From Clostridia bacterium (GTDB lineage: Bacteria; Bacillota_A; Clostridia; Oscillospirales; Acutalibacteraceae), in the NCBI GenBank assembly GCA_017547865.1, contig JAFYOA010000045.1, forward strand, positions 1 to 8,903: a stretch of DNA of 8,903 nt. Direction: 5' to 3'. A program made the position numbers and the translations under genes. Shown in pieces: positions 1-7,358 of this stretch (positions are counted from its first letter, which is position 1; each line of letters opens with the position of its first letter). Under the pieces are notes generated by a model. It did not search any database, had not been told where the DNA came from, and worked only from the letters and a program-made list of their open reading frames with translations.

Positions 1-761
1 GCTATATCGCTTTGGAATCGGACAATGACAAAATTGTATGTTGGCACCGCGGCAAATACCGCAGCCCCGCAAACGAGGGAAGATACAGCGCACAGACAAA
101 ATTTGATGAAAACGAACCTGATTACGAGCGTGTATACAACGCCGCATGCATCAATGATATGATCCGTCGCGGACGGGAAGCCGGCTTTTTCGTAACCTAT
201 AATCATCCAGTTTGGTCCCGGGAGGGATTTACCGAATACAGCCGCTACGAAGGCATGAATGCCATGGAAATCTGCAACTTTGGCTGCATAGCTGTGGGAT
301 ACGATGATTACAATCCCCATGAATATGACGACTTCCTGCACCAAGGAAAACGCATCTACTGCATTGCCACCGATGATAACCATAACCACGGTAATCCCGG
401 TACCCGCAGTTGGGATTCTTTTGGCGGCTTTACGTACATCAAAGCCGATAAACTGGAGTACAGAACAATTACCAAAGCGTTAGAAGACGGACATTTCAAT
501 GCTTCTCAGGGACCCGAAATCCATGAACTTTGGTTTGAAGACGGGCAGCTGCACATCACCTGTTCTCCTGCTGAAAAAATCATTTGCATTGCCGGTCGCC
601 GCGGCGGGCAAATCAACTGGGCAGAGGAGGGGGAAAGTGTGACCGAAGCAACCTTCCGGGTAGATCCCAAAGATGGTTACGTACGCGTGGAAGTGATCGA
701 CCACCGTGGCCGTCCCGCCAACACCAATGCTTATTTCTGCGATGAACTGTTTGCCGATTAA
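1..761 (+). CDS. PHP-domain phosphoesterase-like protein (5' end outside window)
   Basis: The reading frame is open from base 3 to the TAA at 759-761. The first possible start in the window is a TTG at 12, but the codons before it are also open and no ribosome binding site is visible, so the gene almost certainly begins upstream; about 252 C-terminal residues are seen. The stretch TYNHPVWS, followed by an EICN segment and the later CIATDDNHNHG, matches the C-terminal metal-binding motifs of the PHP (polymerase and histidinol phosphatase) fold, which holds divalent metals and hydrolyses phosphoesters. The N-terminal HxH motif would lie outside the window. The last roughly 80 residues (from about GPEIHELWFEDG) look like a small beta-rich domain. 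No membrane segment is visible in this part. The substrate cannot be told. The gene converges on the gatD-like gene and ends at a shared terminator. Family assignment is fairly sure, function is not. Confidence 0.75.
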   Translation, partial: YIALESDNDKIVCWHRGKYRSPANEGRYSAQTKFDENEPDYERVYNAACINDMIRRGREAGFFVTYNHPVWSREGFTEYSRYEGMNAMEICNFGCIAVGYDDYNPHEYDDFLHQGKRIYCIATDDNHNHGNPGTRSWDSFGGFTYIKADKLEYRTITKALEDGHFNASQGPEIHELWFEDGQLHITCSPAEKIICIAGRRGGQINWAEEGESVTEATFRVDPKDGYVRVEVIDHRGRPANTNAYFCDELFAD

Positions 762-770
762 AAGTAAAAA

Positions 771-810
771 AACGTTCCGCTTGCGCAATGCAGGCGGAAC
801 GCTTTTTATT
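771..810. terminator. Bidirectional intrinsic terminator between convergent genes
   Basis: A 12-base-pair stem is formed by 773-784 and 790-801 (CGTTCCGC core, one G-T wobble) with a five-base loop GCAAT. It is followed by TTTTT at 803-807 on the plus strand. Upstream, an A-rich run at 766-772 gives a T-run on the minus strand. It sits between the stop codon of the PHP gene (761) and that of the gatD-like gene (812), so it can serve both. Confidence 0.85.
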
Positions 811-811
811 A

Positions 812-1519
812 TCAGGAAAGCTTTCTGTCTTTTACTTCCTTAATTCGCACATCGTAGGCCTGAATAACTTCCGGTTCAAAGGCAAGTGTCGGATTTTCCG
901 GACCGCCCATTCTGCGGATCAAATCTTTTGTAAAATAGGGGTTAAGCACCAGCAGAGGGCCGAGCAAATAGGTACCGAAAAAGTTATTGACACGAATTCC
1001 TTCCACAGCACATTCACGGTTCATGCCCTTGCCCTGCAGAACTTCTGCAAAATGCGGAACGCCTTCACCCAGGAATGTCTGTGTGAAAGTAGCGCGGAAA
1101 CCAAACACTTCCATATCGCCGAATTTGCACAGTGCCAAACCTTCACTGCGGCGCATCATGTCGCGAGTCATTTTATAATCAAACAGCCCGAGACAATCTA
1201 CGTGTGTACCGTTTACATCATCAATACACTTGCCGAAAATCTCATGAGCATTGCCGGTGGCTAAAATCACGGTGCCATTATCGATCATTTCCTGCAGCCG
1301 TGCTTTATACGGTTTCAAGGCCTCGATCAGCTTCACCTGCGCACTTTCAGTCATAGGGCCAATATACAGAAGACTGACATCCTTCTGTACAAAGGCGGGT
1401 GTTTCGCCAAATGAAGTTGTGATATATTCGGCGTTGGGAAGGCACTGGCACAAGTAGCGCATGTTACCGCCGTCGCCAAAAAGGTTGCACATTTCCGGAT
1501 ACAAAGCTTCAATAATCAT
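812..1519 (-). CDS. GatD-like class I glutamine amidotransferase homologue lacking catalytic Cys and His
   Basis: This 235-residue protein has the size and landmarks of GatD, the amidotransferase subunit of the lipid II isoglutaminyl synthase MurT/GatD. The N-terminus has LYPEMCNLFGDGGN (family form LYPDLLNLYGDRGN), and near residues 178-193 it reads NNFFGTYLLGPLLVLNP (family form GTYLHGPLLPKNP). The nucleophile-elbow segment is ATGNAHEIFGK (residues 87-97), where active enzymes have a CGGxQxLG-type motif, so no Cys stands at the nucleophile position. The usual catalytic His is Leu186. Both codons were checked in the DNA, and the frame is intact. The ATG at 1519 overlaps the murT-like stop in an ATGA, with AAGGAG (1532-1527) seven bases upstream, which supports translational coupling. 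Seen: the residue losses. Inferred: no glutaminase activity, perhaps a structural or allosteric partner of the ligase. It is cytosolic, with no signal peptide. Confidence 0.8.
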   Translation of the reverse strand: MIIEALYPEMCNLFGDGGNMRYLCQCLPNAEYITTSFGETPAFVQKDVSLLYIGPMTESAQVKLIEALKPYKARLQEMIDNGTVILATGNAHEIFGKCIDDVNGTHVDCLGLFDYKMTRDMMRRSEGLALCKFGDMEVFGFRATFTQTFLGEGVPHFAEVLQGKGMNRECAVEGIRVNNFFGTYLLGPLLVLNPYFTKDLIRRMGGPENPTLAFEPEVIQAYDVRIKEVKDRKLS

Positions 1520-2886
1520 TTCTTTTCTCCTTCCGGCAGCGCTTTCAGCTGGTCACAGATGGTCTTCAGAGCTGCGCCATTGAAGATGTCATACATAATC
1601 AGGATCTTGTCCACATTTTCTAGTTTCAGCATCCCCACAGCGTCAGCTTCGTTCATGCAGCAGGCCAGCTTTTCACGGTCGATCCCGGCGATCAAACTGC
1701 GCACCAGGTAATCGTGGCTGCGAACACCGGCAATCACAATCTGCTTAACATCGTCGCCGCGCAGGAATTCAAAGTCGGTTTCATAGATCCAGGCAATGTT
1801 CTCAGAAGAGTTCTTTGCGTCGTTGGCATCGTCCAAAATCATAATTACTGCCTTGTTGCCGGGCTCATGGCGAATAAAATCGCACATAGCGGAACAGGCG
1901 ACAGGGTTCTGACCTTTCGCCAGAGAGACCGTCACTTCCTTACCGGCTGCGGTAAAGCTGTCATAGCGCGTTTTTACGATCTCAAGCTTTTCCATAGCGG
2001 AGGAAACCTGTTCGGCAGAAAGCCCAAATGTACGGGTCAGCGCAATCGCCGCGGTGGTGTTATAAATATCGGTAATACGATGATTCGGAAGCTTATAGCG
2101 TTCTTCCGTTCCGTTGTGATCGATCAAGGCATATCCATCCTGCACAGACTTCGTTTCGAAATCGATAGCAGGGGAGCCAAAGTCGCAATTCACGCATTTT
2201 GCACGGCCGATATGATTGTAGTGCCGGAAGCTGTATGCCAGTTTATGGCCACATTTGGGGCAGCTGCGGATATCACAGATGATATTATCTTCCGTCGGGC
2301 GTTCGCCTTCCAGCTGGTTCAAACCGAAATGAACACGCTCATTATTGATGGCCAATTGGCTGCTGATAAGGTCATCGCCATTCAGGATCAATTTGGTCTT
2401 GGGAGAAATGTATTCATTCAAAATATTGAAGATAAATTCCGTATGAGCATTTCTCTTCATGGAATCGCGCTGCAGATTGGTGCAAACGAGGTAATCAAGA
2501 GTGATATAGGGAAGAATACGGGGAGCGCTGCGTTCATCGATCTCAAACAACGCCAGATCTTTCTTAAAGCCACCCTTCAGGGTGCAGTTATCCAGCAAAA
2601 CAGAGGCAATACCGGAATTGATATTGCCGCCGGCAGCGTTATTGATAAATTTATACCCATTGCTGGAAAGGATATGATTGATCAGATTGGACGTGGTGGT
2701 TTTGCCGTTCGTACCGGTTACACCAATCACAGTTTTCGGCATATCAAAATACTTCAGCACTTCCGGGCACAGACGCAGGGCAACTTTGCCGGGAAAATCC
2801 GTGGCATTGTGGCCAAGCATACGCATAAAGCGAATGGTACCCTTGGCAGCAAGAATAGACAGATAAAAGCTAAGCGGCTTTTTCAT
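1516..2886 (-). CDS. MurT-like Mur ligase family protein
   Basis: This 456-residue ATP-dependent ligase of the MurT branch has the P-loop GVTGTNGKTTT at residues 55-65, a central ligase domain, and a four-Cys zinc ribbon inserted in it (C209-x2-C212 and C231-x2-C234), a hallmark of MurT. The C-terminal part corresponds to the MurT C-terminal domain. Canonical MurT activates D-Glu of lipid II, and GatD supplies ammonia to make D-isoGln. Here several motifs diverge, judged from memory of the family: NLQRDSMKRN where NLFRDQLDRYGE is usual, KTRYDS where a GRxE motif is usual, and ENIAWIYETDFE (362-373) where DxSWxWDxDFE is usual. The last change removes Asp positions that contribute to the GatD active site. 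The gene is co-transcribed with and overlaps the gatD-like gene. The ATG at 2886 is preceded by AGGAG (2905-2901) at an unusually long 14-base spacing; no better in-frame start exists before an upstream in-frame stop. Family is sure; substrate is uncertain. Confidence 0.85.
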   Translation of the reverse strand: MKKPLSFYLSILAAKGTIRFMRMLGHNATDFPGKVALRLCPEVLKYFDMPKTVIGVTGTNGKTTTSNLINHILSSNGYKFINNAAGGNINSGIASVLLDNCTLKGGFKKDLALFEIDERSAPRILPYITLDYLVCTNLQRDSMKRNAHTEFIFNILNEYISPKTKLILNGDDLISSQLAINNERVHFGLNQLEGERPTEDNIICDIRSCPKCGHKLAYSFRHYNHIGRAKCVNCDFGSPAIDFETKSVQDGYALIDHNGTEERYKLPNHRITDIYNTTAAIALTRTFGLSAEQVSSAMEKLEIVKTRYDSFTAAGKEVTVSLAKGQNPVACSAMCDFIRHEPGNKAVIMILDDANDAKNSSENIAWIYETDFEFLRGDDVKQIVIAGVRSHDYLVRSLIAGIDREKLACCMNEADAVGMLKLENVDKILIMYDIFNGAALKTICDQLKALPEGEKK

Positions 2887-2931
2887 ATTTCGTGGGTCAT
2901 CTCCTAAAATAGAAATTGCATAAGCTTTATT

Positions 2932-2959
2932 ATTTTAACATTTTCGTCCGATTTAGTAA
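2932..2959 (-). promoter_or_regulatory. Candidate promoter of the murT-gatD-like operon
   Basis: On the minus strand TTACTA (2959-2954) is followed after 16 bases by TAAAAT (2937-2932). The -10 box is preceded by TGT, which gives an extended -10 (TGTTAAAAT). The -35 match is weak (3 of 6). It would give a leader of about 40 bases before the ATG at 2886. No other better candidate was seen between the upstream terminator and the gene. Confidence 0.5.
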
Positions 2960-2980
2960 ATGGATTCGAAGAAAAAATAT

Positions 2981-3017
2981 AACAAAAAGAAAGGAGCCAG
3001 CCATGTGGCTGACTCCT
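2981..3017 (-). terminator. Intrinsic terminator after the GH3 gene
   Basis: An 11-base stem (2992-3002 with 3007-3017, AGGAGxCAGCC type, one mismatch) encloses the loop ATGT. On the minus strand it is followed by TTCTTTTTGTT (2991-2981). It lies 17 bases past the GH3 stop codon and ahead of the murT promoter, so it separates the two units. Confidence 0.8.
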
Positions 3018-3033
3018 GAGATGCAAAATTGAA

Positions 3034-4737
3034 TTAAAGCTTGGTATCCCAACGATCGCACCAAACGTTATTGCTGGGAGTGCCCTTGAATTCGCTGTCG
3101 CCGCAGATCTTGCCGATCACGGCCTTAACAACGTTCTTGGAATCCTGATAGCAGTTGATGTAGGTACGGCTCATGGTGAGGTCAATGAGGTAGTTGGGCA
3201 GATACAGGCTGATGAAAGCGGTGGGAACCTGGCAGGCATACCACGGCTGATCGATGGGCAGAGACCACTTCACACGCATGGTGTTGTACTGAGCAAAGCC
3301 AACCTGATCGATGAAGACCAGAACGGCGTCGTACTTAGCCATGAACTCGTCCATCTTGCCCTTGGCCGGACGATCATCCAGATCATCCACTTCAAAGCCG
3401 CGCTTGCGGAGCTCTTCGAAGATGAGAGGCTTAGCATCGGACTTGGTCTTGATCAGCTGACCGGCAACCACACGGCCGTCGCCTTCCAGGAAGAGGACGC
3501 ACAGACGCTTGTGGGTTTCGGGGCTGATGGGCAGCATCTTCTGGGTATCCTTAACCAGAGTGATGAACTTATCGGCGCATTCGTCAGCGATCTTCAGGTG
3601 CTCTTCGCAGCCAACAACGGACAGGCCGTCGTGAGAAGGAATGAGGGTACCGGCAGCCTGCTTCTTGTGCAGACCGATGGAAGCCTTAACACCCAGAATA
3701 CGCATCAGAGCATCGGTCATACGCTCTTCGGTGATGATGCCGTTCTTGTAACCGTCCATCATGTAGCCATAGTCTTCTTCCATATCGTTGAAGAACAGGA
3801 ACATATCGCAACCGGCAGCGATGGCACGGGGCAGCTGCTCAGAACGAGGCATGCAGGAACCGAACATACCGATCATGTGAGACGCGTCGGTAACAACCAG
3901 ACCGTTGAAGCCCAGTTCAGTCTTCAGCAGGCCGTTGAGCAGTTCGGGGCACAGGGTAGCGGGCAGGATTTCATGATCGTCCAGATCCTTACCGGCGAGC
4001 TTGCGCTGCCAGGCGGGCTGAGCAATGTGACCGGCCATGATGGTCTTCACACCGAAATCGATGAGTTCCTTGTAAACCTTACCAAAGGAAGCCATCCACT
4101 CATCGGCGGGCAGATCGTTGATGCCCATCATCAGGTGCTGGTCGTTTTCTTCGGTGCCGTCACCGGGGAAGTGCTTGCAGCAGGTGGCCATTTCGCACTC
4201 TTCGGTGCCCTTCATAAAGGCCTTTGCATAAGCGATGGTTTCATCGGGATCATCGCAGAAAGAGCGAGTCTGCACAATGGTGTTTCTCCAGTTCTGCAGC
4301 AGGTCAACGATGGGAGCGAAGTTCCAGTTGGAACCGATGGCCATAGCTTCGGTGCCGCCGACCTTAGCAGCCTTGTAGGCCACATCGGGATCTTTGGAAG
4401 CAGCCGTAGCAGCACCGCAGGAAACAGCAGTACCGCCGCCGACACCGCCGTTACCACCGGCTTCGCAGTTGGAAGCAACCAGCAACGGGATGCGGCTGTG
4501 CTCCTGGAAAGTCTTGATCATGGTCCACAGTTCTTCTGCGGACTTGCTCTGATAACGCAGGGCACCGGGATGATACTTTTCGGCAACCTTGATGATGCCG
4601 TCAGTACTGAAATCATGCACCATGTTTACGAACAGCTGGCCGACTTTTTCTTCGTCGGTCATGCTGGCGATGGTGTCCATGACCCATTTGACGCCTTCGT
4701 CATCGAGATAGAACGGTTTTGCTTTCAGATCTACCAT
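3034..4737 (-). CDS. Glycoside hydrolase family 3, NagZ-like beta-N-acetylhexosaminidase
   Basis: This 567-residue GH3 enzyme is predicted to release terminal beta-N-acetylglucosamine-type sugars. The N-terminal TIM-barrel domain covers about residues 15-360: RSFCDDPDE near 158-166, KHFPGDG at 188-194, the Asp-x-His pair D199/H201 that in NagZ-type GH3 enzymes supplies the acid/base, and VVTDASHMIGM with the probable nucleophile Asp284. A second alpha/beta domain (about 375-567) resembles the GH3 C-terminal domain of two-domain members. The His of the usual KHFPGHG motif is Asp193 here. There is no signal peptide or lipobox, so it probably works in the cytosol on imported or recycled wall fragments. 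The start is the ATG at 4737 with AAGGAG (4752-4747) nine bases upstream. In the parts read, lysine is almost always AAG after the first codons, a sign of high expression. It has its own promoter and terminator. The exact substrate (GlcNAc-anhydroMurNAc, chitobiose or other) is unknown. Confidence 0.85.
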   Translation of the reverse strand: MVDLKAKPFYLDDEGVKWVMDTIASMTDEEKVGQLFVNMVHDFSTDGIIKVAEKYHPGALRYQSKSAEELWTMIKTFQEHSRIPLLVASNCEAGGNGGVGGGTAVSCGAATAASKDPDVAYKAAKVGGTEAMAIGSNWNFAPIVDLLQNWRNTIVQTRSFCDDPDETIAYAKAFMKGTEECEMATCCKHFPGDGTEENDQHLMMGINDLPADEWMASFGKVYKELIDFGVKTIMAGHIAQPAWQRKLAGKDLDDHEILPATLCPELLNGLLKTELGFNGLVVTDASHMIGMFGSCMPRSEQLPRAIAAGCDMFLFFNDMEEDYGYMMDGYKNGIITEERMTDALMRILGVKASIGLHKKQAAGTLIPSHDGLSVVGCEEHLKIADECADKFITLVKDTQKMLPISPETHKRLCVLFLEGDGRVVAGQLIKTKSDAKPLIFEELRKRGFEVDDLDDRPAKGKMDEFMAKYDAVLVFIDQVGFAQYNTMRVKWSLPIDQPWYACQVPTAFISLYLPNYLIDLTMSRTYINCYQDSKNVVKAVIGKICGDSEFKGTPSNNVWCDRWDTKL

Positions 4738-6908: not shown

Positions 6909-7358
6909 TCAGTTCATGGCTCTCTGTACAGCTTCCAGAGTGCGCTCAAAATCAGCGGAAGTCACCAGGAAGGAAATCTCCACTTCGGAAGTGGAAATTA
7001 GACGGACATCCGCATGAACGGAAGCAGCGGCGTTCAGAACCTTGAAAGCGATACCGGGAGTATTCTTCATGTCCGGATCGTACACAGAAAGCTTATAATT
7101 GCCGTTGCTCACAATGAATTTGGAATCCGTGCTGCTTCTCAGCTCAGAAATACAGGTAAACAGATCGTTATCATCAATGGTAAAGGAAAAATCCGTAAGG
7201 GCACCGTGGGTAGGGGCCAAAGAAATCATATCGATATTTACTCCGGCATCCGAAATTCCTTTCAGCACCTTCGTGATATCTTCCATATTGGCAGAGCAAT
7301 TCTGCAGTGTCACCAGCGTGATATCGCTGATATAACTGACAACGGTTTTATCTCCCAT
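6909..7358 (-). CDS. Stand-alone double ACT-domain protein, aspartokinase regulatory-type
   Basis: This 149-residue protein is made of two ACT domains. The first (about residues 10-75) contains DITLVTLQN and GVNIDMISLAP followed by TDFSFTID. The second (about 86-148) contains KLSVYDPDM, PGIAFKVLNAA and LISTSEVEISFLV. This order and the ISTSEVxIS motif are those of the C-terminal regulatory part of aspartokinase (LysC type), where ACT pairs bind lysine or threonine at a dimer interface. No amino-acid kinase domain is present, and the gene has its own GGAGG (7373-7369) ten bases before the ATG at 7358, so it is a free-standing module rather than a visible fragment. It follows dapB by 16 bases and is the last gene before a strong terminator. 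A trans-acting feedback sensor for aspartokinase or the dap enzymes is the likeliest role, by inference. Confidence 0.8.
   Translation of the reverse strand: MGDKTVVSYISDITLVTLQNCSANMEDITKVLKGISDAGVNIDMISLAPTHGALTDFSFTIDDNDLFTCISELRSSTDSKFIVSNGNYKLSVYDPDMKNTPGIAFKVLNAAASVHADVRLISTSEVEISFLVTSADFERTLEAVQRAMN

Follow-up and report, generated by a model that had tools for sequence, protein, structure and literature searches.

A MurT/GatD pair with a glutaminase-dead GatD in a Clostridia bacterium, a probable glutamine-independent amide ligase

The closest described systems are the GatD/MurT lipid II isoglutaminyl synthases of Staphylococcus aureus, Streptococcus pneumoniae and Streptococcus pyogenes. 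In S. aureus, complexes with GatD C94A or H189A were reported to be totally inactive as glutaminases (PMC5871853). Asp349 of MurT, which contacts His189, was proposed as the third residue of the catalytic triad, and MurT-D349N was reported to abolish or severely reduce amidation (PMC6113224). These two papers call either all three residues (Cys94, His189 and MurT-Asp349) or only Cys94 and His189 conserved among the homologues that they aligned (PMC6113224, PMC5871853). The S. aureus MurT/GatD-C94G complex lost glutamine-dependent amidation of lipid II while retaining NH3-dependent amidation at pH 8.5, and MurT or GatD alone gave no amidation (PMC3266927). In S. pneumoniae, MurT mutants at K59, N85, D112/E113, D136 and R140 were left with 1–13% of activity, and the loop residues D139 (71%) and E143 (102%) tolerated loss. 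The mutant D355A, at the S. pneumoniae site of D349, kept 28%, with GatD Asp32 proposed as the third triad residue (PMC6085368). In Mycobacterium tuberculosis, amidation of D-Glu masks a NOD1 ligand (PMC11132681). Among the titles and abstract openings of the open-licence papers that our searches listed, we found no description of a GatD without the catalytic Cys and His.

The DNA analyzed here, referred to as the window, is a stretch of 8,903 nucleotides from a Clostridia bacterium (contig JAFYOA010000045.1). A gatD-like gene encoding 235 amino acids from an ATG start lies at 812..1519 on the minus strand (reading 1519..812); the plus strand of this interval contains internal stop codons in frame. 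The first-pass annotation had described the gene as intact and coupled to its partner, and this was borne out: it overlaps by 4 nt a murT-like ligase gene of 456 amino acids (1516..2886, minus). Both open reading frames were visible at 78 of 80 related loci, and in the remaining two gatD stood at the very start of the available sequence; these loci are the best 80 of 546, chosen with two patterns, one of them excluding His, and give no measure of frequency. The MurT_C domain of the ligase (PF08353) scored 72.2 bits against a curated cut-off of 25, and the protein matched S. aureus MurT with an E value of 9.1e-54; its score for the NCBIfam equivalog NF045635 was 194.2 bits, below the cut-off of 800. 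The window GatD has the GatD fold, scoring barely above the cut-off of Pfam PF07685 (29.3 vs. 27 bits) and below that of NCBIfam NF045636 (63.9 vs. 400 bits). The window also includes dapA and dapB. Immediately after dapB, a separate reading frame (6909-7358, minus) encodes two ACT domains of the aspartate-kinase type and no kinase domain; its product may be a regulator that senses lysine.

A midpoint-rooted tree was built from 232 distinct MurT+GatD pairs (support of the deepest split, 0.107). A split with a support of 0.978 separated 122 pairs, canonical ones together with sporadic losses, from 110 others. The latter consisted of the window's own group (90 distinct pairs), a third group (13) and a fourth, the Acetobacterium branch (7), one member of which has exactly the sequence of a protein recorded under the name Acetobacterium woodii. 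The canonical set (n = 106) was defined as GatD with Cys, which makes its 106/106 Cys a matter of definition; His was present in 105/105 of its readable rows, with three His-less rows kept apart. The sporadic group comprised eight rows from seven loci, one locus (L258) being counted twice.

Alignment with S. aureus GatD placed ICGGYQFLG opposite TGNAHEIFG of the window protein and GTYLHGP opposite GTYLLGP. The site of C94 is thereby Gly89, in the nucleophile elbow T88-G89-N90 (1250..1258, minus), and that of H189 is Leu186 (962..964, minus), as the first-pass annotation had noticed. The 90 pairs of the window's group have Gly (86), Asn (3) or Ser (1) at the former site and His in none at the latter. 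Among the best 120 of 288 homologues of the window GatD (E ≤ 0.001), all 120 have Gly at the Cys site, and His is absent from the His site throughout. The surroundings are changed as well. Glu93 (1241..1243, minus) replaces the Gln of CGGYQ, and this column holds Glu or Asp in 90/90 of the group; in canonical GatD it holds Gln in 95 and Glu or Asp in 6 of 106. In the former oxyanion loop, GPMTE stands for GGGxD, the Gly triplet having become GPM; Glu58 of this loop (1346..1348, minus) is Glu in 89/90 of the group, and the canonical column is Asp in 90 and Glu in 9 of 106. The interface Trp is present in 90/90, and Asp16, the equivalent of S. pneumoniae GatD Asp32, is kept. The window protein has neither the elbow Cys nor the catalytic His of a class I glutamine amidotransferase and, judged by these catalytic residues, is outside the glutamine-hydrolysing family.

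The partner ligase lacks the facing acid too. At the site of S. aureus MurT D349 the window MurT has Asn363 (1798..1800, minus); this column is Asn in 83/90 of the window's group and 7/7 of the fourth group, Asp or Glu in the third, and Asp in 105/106 canonical proteins. Loss of the GatD glutaminase is well supported because the effects of C94A, H189A and D349N in S. aureus match residues that are replaced here; the argument proceeds from mutants at equivalent positions. The residues for ligase catalysis were found in place. The S. pneumoniae residues K59, N85, D112/E113, D136 and R140 correspond to K62, N88, D117/E118, D141 and R145, which are kept in 87/87 (K62), 86/87 (N88), 87/87 (D117), 87/87 (E118), 87/88 (D141) and 87/88 (R145) readable proteins of the window's group. 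K62 lies in the P-loop TGTNGKT (2698..2718, minus). The four Cys of the zinc ribbon (C209, C212, C231 and C234; 2185..2262, minus) are likewise kept (88/88, 88/88, 89/89 and 88/89 readable).

Other parts of MurT were remodelled, and two features serve as signatures of the subfamily. Arg119 (2530..2532, minus) follows the Mg-binding Asp-Glu pair and occurs in 83/87 readable proteins of the window's group, 13/13 of the third and 7/7 of the fourth, and in 0/106 canonical ones. The second is an insertion of two residues, G325-Q326, in the K-N-P loop (1909..1914, minus); its first position is filled in at least 89/90, 13/13 and 7/7 of the three groups and is a gap in 106/106 canonical proteins. The loop residues D139 and E143 (S. 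pneumoniae numbering) are both replaced in the window's group. The Glu143 site, in the loop facing GatD, is His148 in the window (2443..2445, minus), with His in 81/88 readable proteins of the group and Glu in 104/106 canonical ones. Arg119 and the insertion are also absent from the canonical MurT proteins read in the order of genome G031. Asn146 of MurT was considered as a further mark of the dead subfamily and rejected, since canonical MurT in that order has it as well (27/29 readable rows).

Parsimony on the MurT+GatD tree required eight steps for the Cys, five for the His and eight for the MurT Asp; on a tree of MurT alone the numbers were nine, five and seven. Some sporadic losses of the Cys were found in one genome each, among them G235 (L258), where MurT is split into two open reading frames, and gene decay may be at work among the sporadic losses outside the window's group. 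Since Arg119 and the two-residue insertion are common to the 110 pairs and absent in the sporadic losses, we distinguish two phenomena. In one, the Cys was lost repeatedly beside a MurT that is canonical in other respects; the other is a single old subfamily whose MurT was remodelled too, and to which the window pair belongs. The loss of the MurT Asp, the eight steps of Cys loss and the membership of an old subfamily marked by a distinctive MurT signature go beyond what the first-pass annotation had proposed. A separate branch of five loci (L142, L143, L144, L147 and L148) has lost Cys and His with a canonical MurT; in 5/5 the same-strand gene downstream of the pair has a FemX-like start (read from the start of the sequence).

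To estimate how frequent these losses are, 291 genomes were sampled from the class of Frisingicoccus regardless of GatD; 158 had MurT_C. Of these 158, 104 had canonical GatD only and 36 had lost both residues; six had lost the Cys and kept the His, three had kept the Cys and lost the His, and one had a Cys-less copy together with a canonical one. Seven had no GatD reading frame found near MurT, and one was cut. A GatD copy without Cys, His or both was thus present in 46/158. The sample includes its own seed genome (G021), without which the both-lost count is 35/157. Set against these 104 canonical genomes, the uniform loss among the best 120 homologues can hardly be due to chance. The possibility of a conserved clade with the TGNxxE/GTYLLG form, raised in the first-pass annotation, was supported. 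No canonical pair was found in any of the 36 both-lost genomes, an absence that is not absolute because many are metagenome-assembled. Whole genomes were available behind 37 of the 80 related loci; 36 had MurT_C, 33 of them exactly one. Two genomes (G021 and G028) had two pairs each, all without Cys and His, and one of the 37 reached from dead pairs (G010) had a canonical pair (L081) beside the dead one. The order of G031 gave 143 genomes, 79 of them MurT-bearing. The 30 best-scoring were read, dead pairs being expected rather among those with low scores, and yielded 27 rows with Cys and His, one Cys-less row with His, four partial rows and one locus without a GatD found.

Several individual loci differed in arrangement. 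In one genome (G052) a canonical pair coexists with another whose GatD lacks the Cys only (L180 and L191). Seven loci (L145, L163, L176, L236, L244, L252 and L255) have murT without a recognised GatD reading frame nearby although downstream DNA is present; MurT may stand alone there, or its partner may have diverged strongly. A natural MurT-GatD fusion of 863 amino acids, which has Gly for the Cys but retains the His, was found at L155 (G039:C37, ORF 486-3074, minus). Frisingicoccus caecimuris (L026, 4589-8561) has a tandem murT-gatD-murT-gatD arrangement in which neither GatD retains the Cys or the His; in the second MurT the P-loop is altered to GTKGKT and the alignment shows no zinc Cys.

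The earlier view that this is not a decaying gene was upheld for the window's group. Among relatives, the GatD dN/dS had a median of 0.098 and a maximum of 0.271 (159/160 non-independent pairs, 78–97% identity), and together with the conserved motifs this ruled out a decaying pseudogene there. The ratio comes from relatives only, because the synonymous sites of the window GatD were saturated in comparison with three loci. Record titles of the relatives mention goat cecum, roe-deer colon, water-deer rectum, wild mice and chicken, and species with a pair of this group include Neglectibacter timonensis and Frisingicoccus caecimuris (DSM 28559).

We consider it probable that MurT and GatD here form an amide ligase that has ceased to use glutamine, with a non-catalytic GatD and a nucleophile that reaches MurT directly, most likely ammonia. 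MurT would still bind ATP and, in the lipid-linked precursor of the cell wall, activate the D-Glu alpha-carboxyl. Having lost the catalytic Cys and His, and with them the facing MurT Asp, GatD would be unable to split glutamine, and with the ligase half kept the nitrogen probably comes from a source other than glutamine. The retention of NH3-dependent amidation by S. aureus C94G and the failure of either subunit alone make a direct-nucleophile ligase the best reading of the natural pair, with GatD as an obligatory subunit that would hold MurT in its working shape. The first-pass annotation had listed a ligase using free ammonia or another nucleophile among several possible roles, and the kept MurT residues along with the lost third-triad Asp favor that suggestion. 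For the window organism free ammonia would be the likeliest nucleophile, given dapA and dapB and the gut-associated relatives. Ammonia is plentiful in gut habitats. Against a simple ammonia enzyme stand the remodelled MurT site, the newly conserved pocket residues N90 and E93, and the report that NH3-dependent amidation in S. aureus works at pH 8.5 and not at 7.5 (PMC3266927). The 36 both-lost genomes in which no canonical pair was found speak for a glutamine-independent ligase, and G010, with a pair of each kind, speaks against it. The argument from the triad is likewise weakened by the activity left in S. pneumoniae D355A and by the kept Asp16, the alternative third residue. The genes themselves display lost glutaminase residues, kept ligase residues, purifying selection in relatives and membership of one old subfamily; the substrate, the product, the nucleophile and the role of GatD are inferred.

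The MurT site has changed beyond what the loss of glutamine alone would require, with Arg119, the insertion and the replacement of both D139 and E143, and the nucleophile or acceptor may for this reason differ. MurT could join glycine, a diamino acid, a polyamine or some other amine or amino acid to the D-Glu alpha-carboxyl, leaving the GatD glutaminase unneeded, a reading we hold to be unlikely. Arg119 and the KxxN insertion lie beside the Mg/acceptor site and are missing in sporadic losses with a canonical MurT, and both Arg119 and the fourth group would be easier to account for with such a nucleophile than with ammonia. However, the 30 largest neighbor clusters from 113 loci included no shared amine or amino-acid gene beside the pair in the window's group that could act as a donor. 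Conserved neighbors reflected clade synteny only: a mnmA-like gene and a cluster of rlmN-like, PP2C-like and PASTA-kinase-like genes at 28–31 loci (named from the starts of the sequences). The dapA and dapB genes of the window organism also count against it, and the polyamine attachment reported in Selenomonas and Veillonella (PMC12826042) is an analogy only.

The fourth group bears on this amino-acid reading. In type-B peptidoglycan the cross-bridge begins at the D-Glu alpha-carboxyl; the wall of A. woodii is classed as type B, and the Microbacteriaceae are another type-B group. A profile search matched 38 of 40 genomes of the Acetobacterium/Eubacterium family (the family of G127). Among the 38 were 29 with a readable dead GatD, one fragment with Leu at the His site, seven with canonical pairs only and one unread fragment (G336). 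All 29 readable dead pairs have Gly and Leu in GatD and Arg119, the insertion and the Asn in MurT. One of these 29 genomes (G360) has a dead and a canonical pair (L302 and L349). The generalization that all Eubacteriaceae carry the dead pair is false; eight genomes have a canonical pair, seven of them with no dead one seen, which also speaks against the amino-acid reading. The family is one for which a review table lists B2alpha walls, although the same Eubacterium row gives A1gamma, A4alpha and A4beta (PMC11382707). In A. woodii a single MurT was found, followed on the same strand by a mnmA-like gene and then by glmM- and glmS-like genes (cell-wall sugar synthesis). The order murT-gatD-mnmA-like-glmM-like recurred at L334, L335, L338, L339 and L341, and a glmM-like gene directly follows gatD at L336, L337 and L340; Pfam was run on L334 and on parts of L337 and L338. 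The A. woodii genome paper (PMC3315566) makes no mention of murein, peptidoglycan or cell wall.

If the A. woodii wall is of type B, its only MurT found acts on or near the carboxyl that bears the bridge amino acid. A more specific proposal, which we judge rather unlikely, is that the old MurT subfamily as a whole attaches an amino acid or diamine instead of ammonia to the D-Glu alpha-carboxyl, that the Acetobacterium/Eubacterium branch thereby starts the type-B cross-bridge, and that GatD is non-catalytic and shapes the nucleophile site. Arg119, the KxxN insertion and the split within the family carry the argument for it, and the dead/canonical split within the Eubacteriaceae offers a test of the type-B bridge reading.

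GatD might instead be a sensor that binds glutamine or another small molecule unsplit and switches MurT on or off, but this is improbable. Arg124, the equivalent of the glutamine-capturing R128 of S. aureus, is kept in 88/90 of the window's group and 13/13 of the third group, which makes a glutamine sensor possible. In the window's group the pocket has gained two conserved residues, N90 and E93, which suggest that it still binds something. A glutamine sensor does not explain the whole subfamily, because Arg124 is lost in 7/7 of the Acetobacterium branch, where Glu58 and Glu93 also stand at 0/7 each, and MurT would still need a nitrogen source. A hidden glutaminase site made of other Cys and His residues is very improbable. 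Cys11 (106/120) and Cys26 (101/120) are frequent among the best 120 of 288 homologues but are otherwise Ala, Gly, Ser, Thr or Asn. The most conserved His column among these 120 reaches 61, at position 123, which is Arg in the window protein, and the Gly triplet of the oxyanion loop has been lost. Cys98, which the first-pass annotation had named as a possible substitute, is rare in the group, its column being Tyr in 62/87 of the group and 35/36 canonical proteins. Column conservation thus led us to reject Cys98 or another Cys/His pair as the active site.

Dead MurT/GatD pairs are thus real, widespread and under selection, and a description of them was not found in the open-licence literature searched. 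The conservation of Cys94, His189 and MurT-Asp349 fails in more than a quarter of the ligase-bearing genomes of the sampled class, and the label "glutamine-hydrolysing" would be wrong for the dead GatD proteins. The pairs raise the questions of how gut anaerobes modify D-Glu, whether ammonia is used directly, and which enzyme forms the alpha-carboxyl bridge of type-B walls.

Several known systems can be set beside the window pair. Type-B peptidoglycan of Eubacterium is linked to it by taxonomy only, in that the dead-pair branch occurs in that family, whereas the window organism has no such known wall. Compared with the GatD/MurT of S. aureus, S. pneumoniae and S. pyogenes, the window pair has the Cys, the His and the facing MurT Asp replaced and lacks the oxyanion Gly triplet, and its MurT has gained Arg119 and the two-residue insertion. 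The laboratory mutant MurT/GatD-C94G of S. aureus carries the same Cys-to-Gly change (PMC3266927). That mutant keeps His189 and MurT-D349, however, whereas the window's clade has all three changed. Human carbamoyl phosphate synthetase 1 has kept a glutaminase-like domain without the catalytic Cys and uses ammonia as its nitrogen source. By analogy, the window pair may work in a similar way, although the human enzyme is an unrelated ligase with fused domains that serves ureagenesis and not the cell wall.
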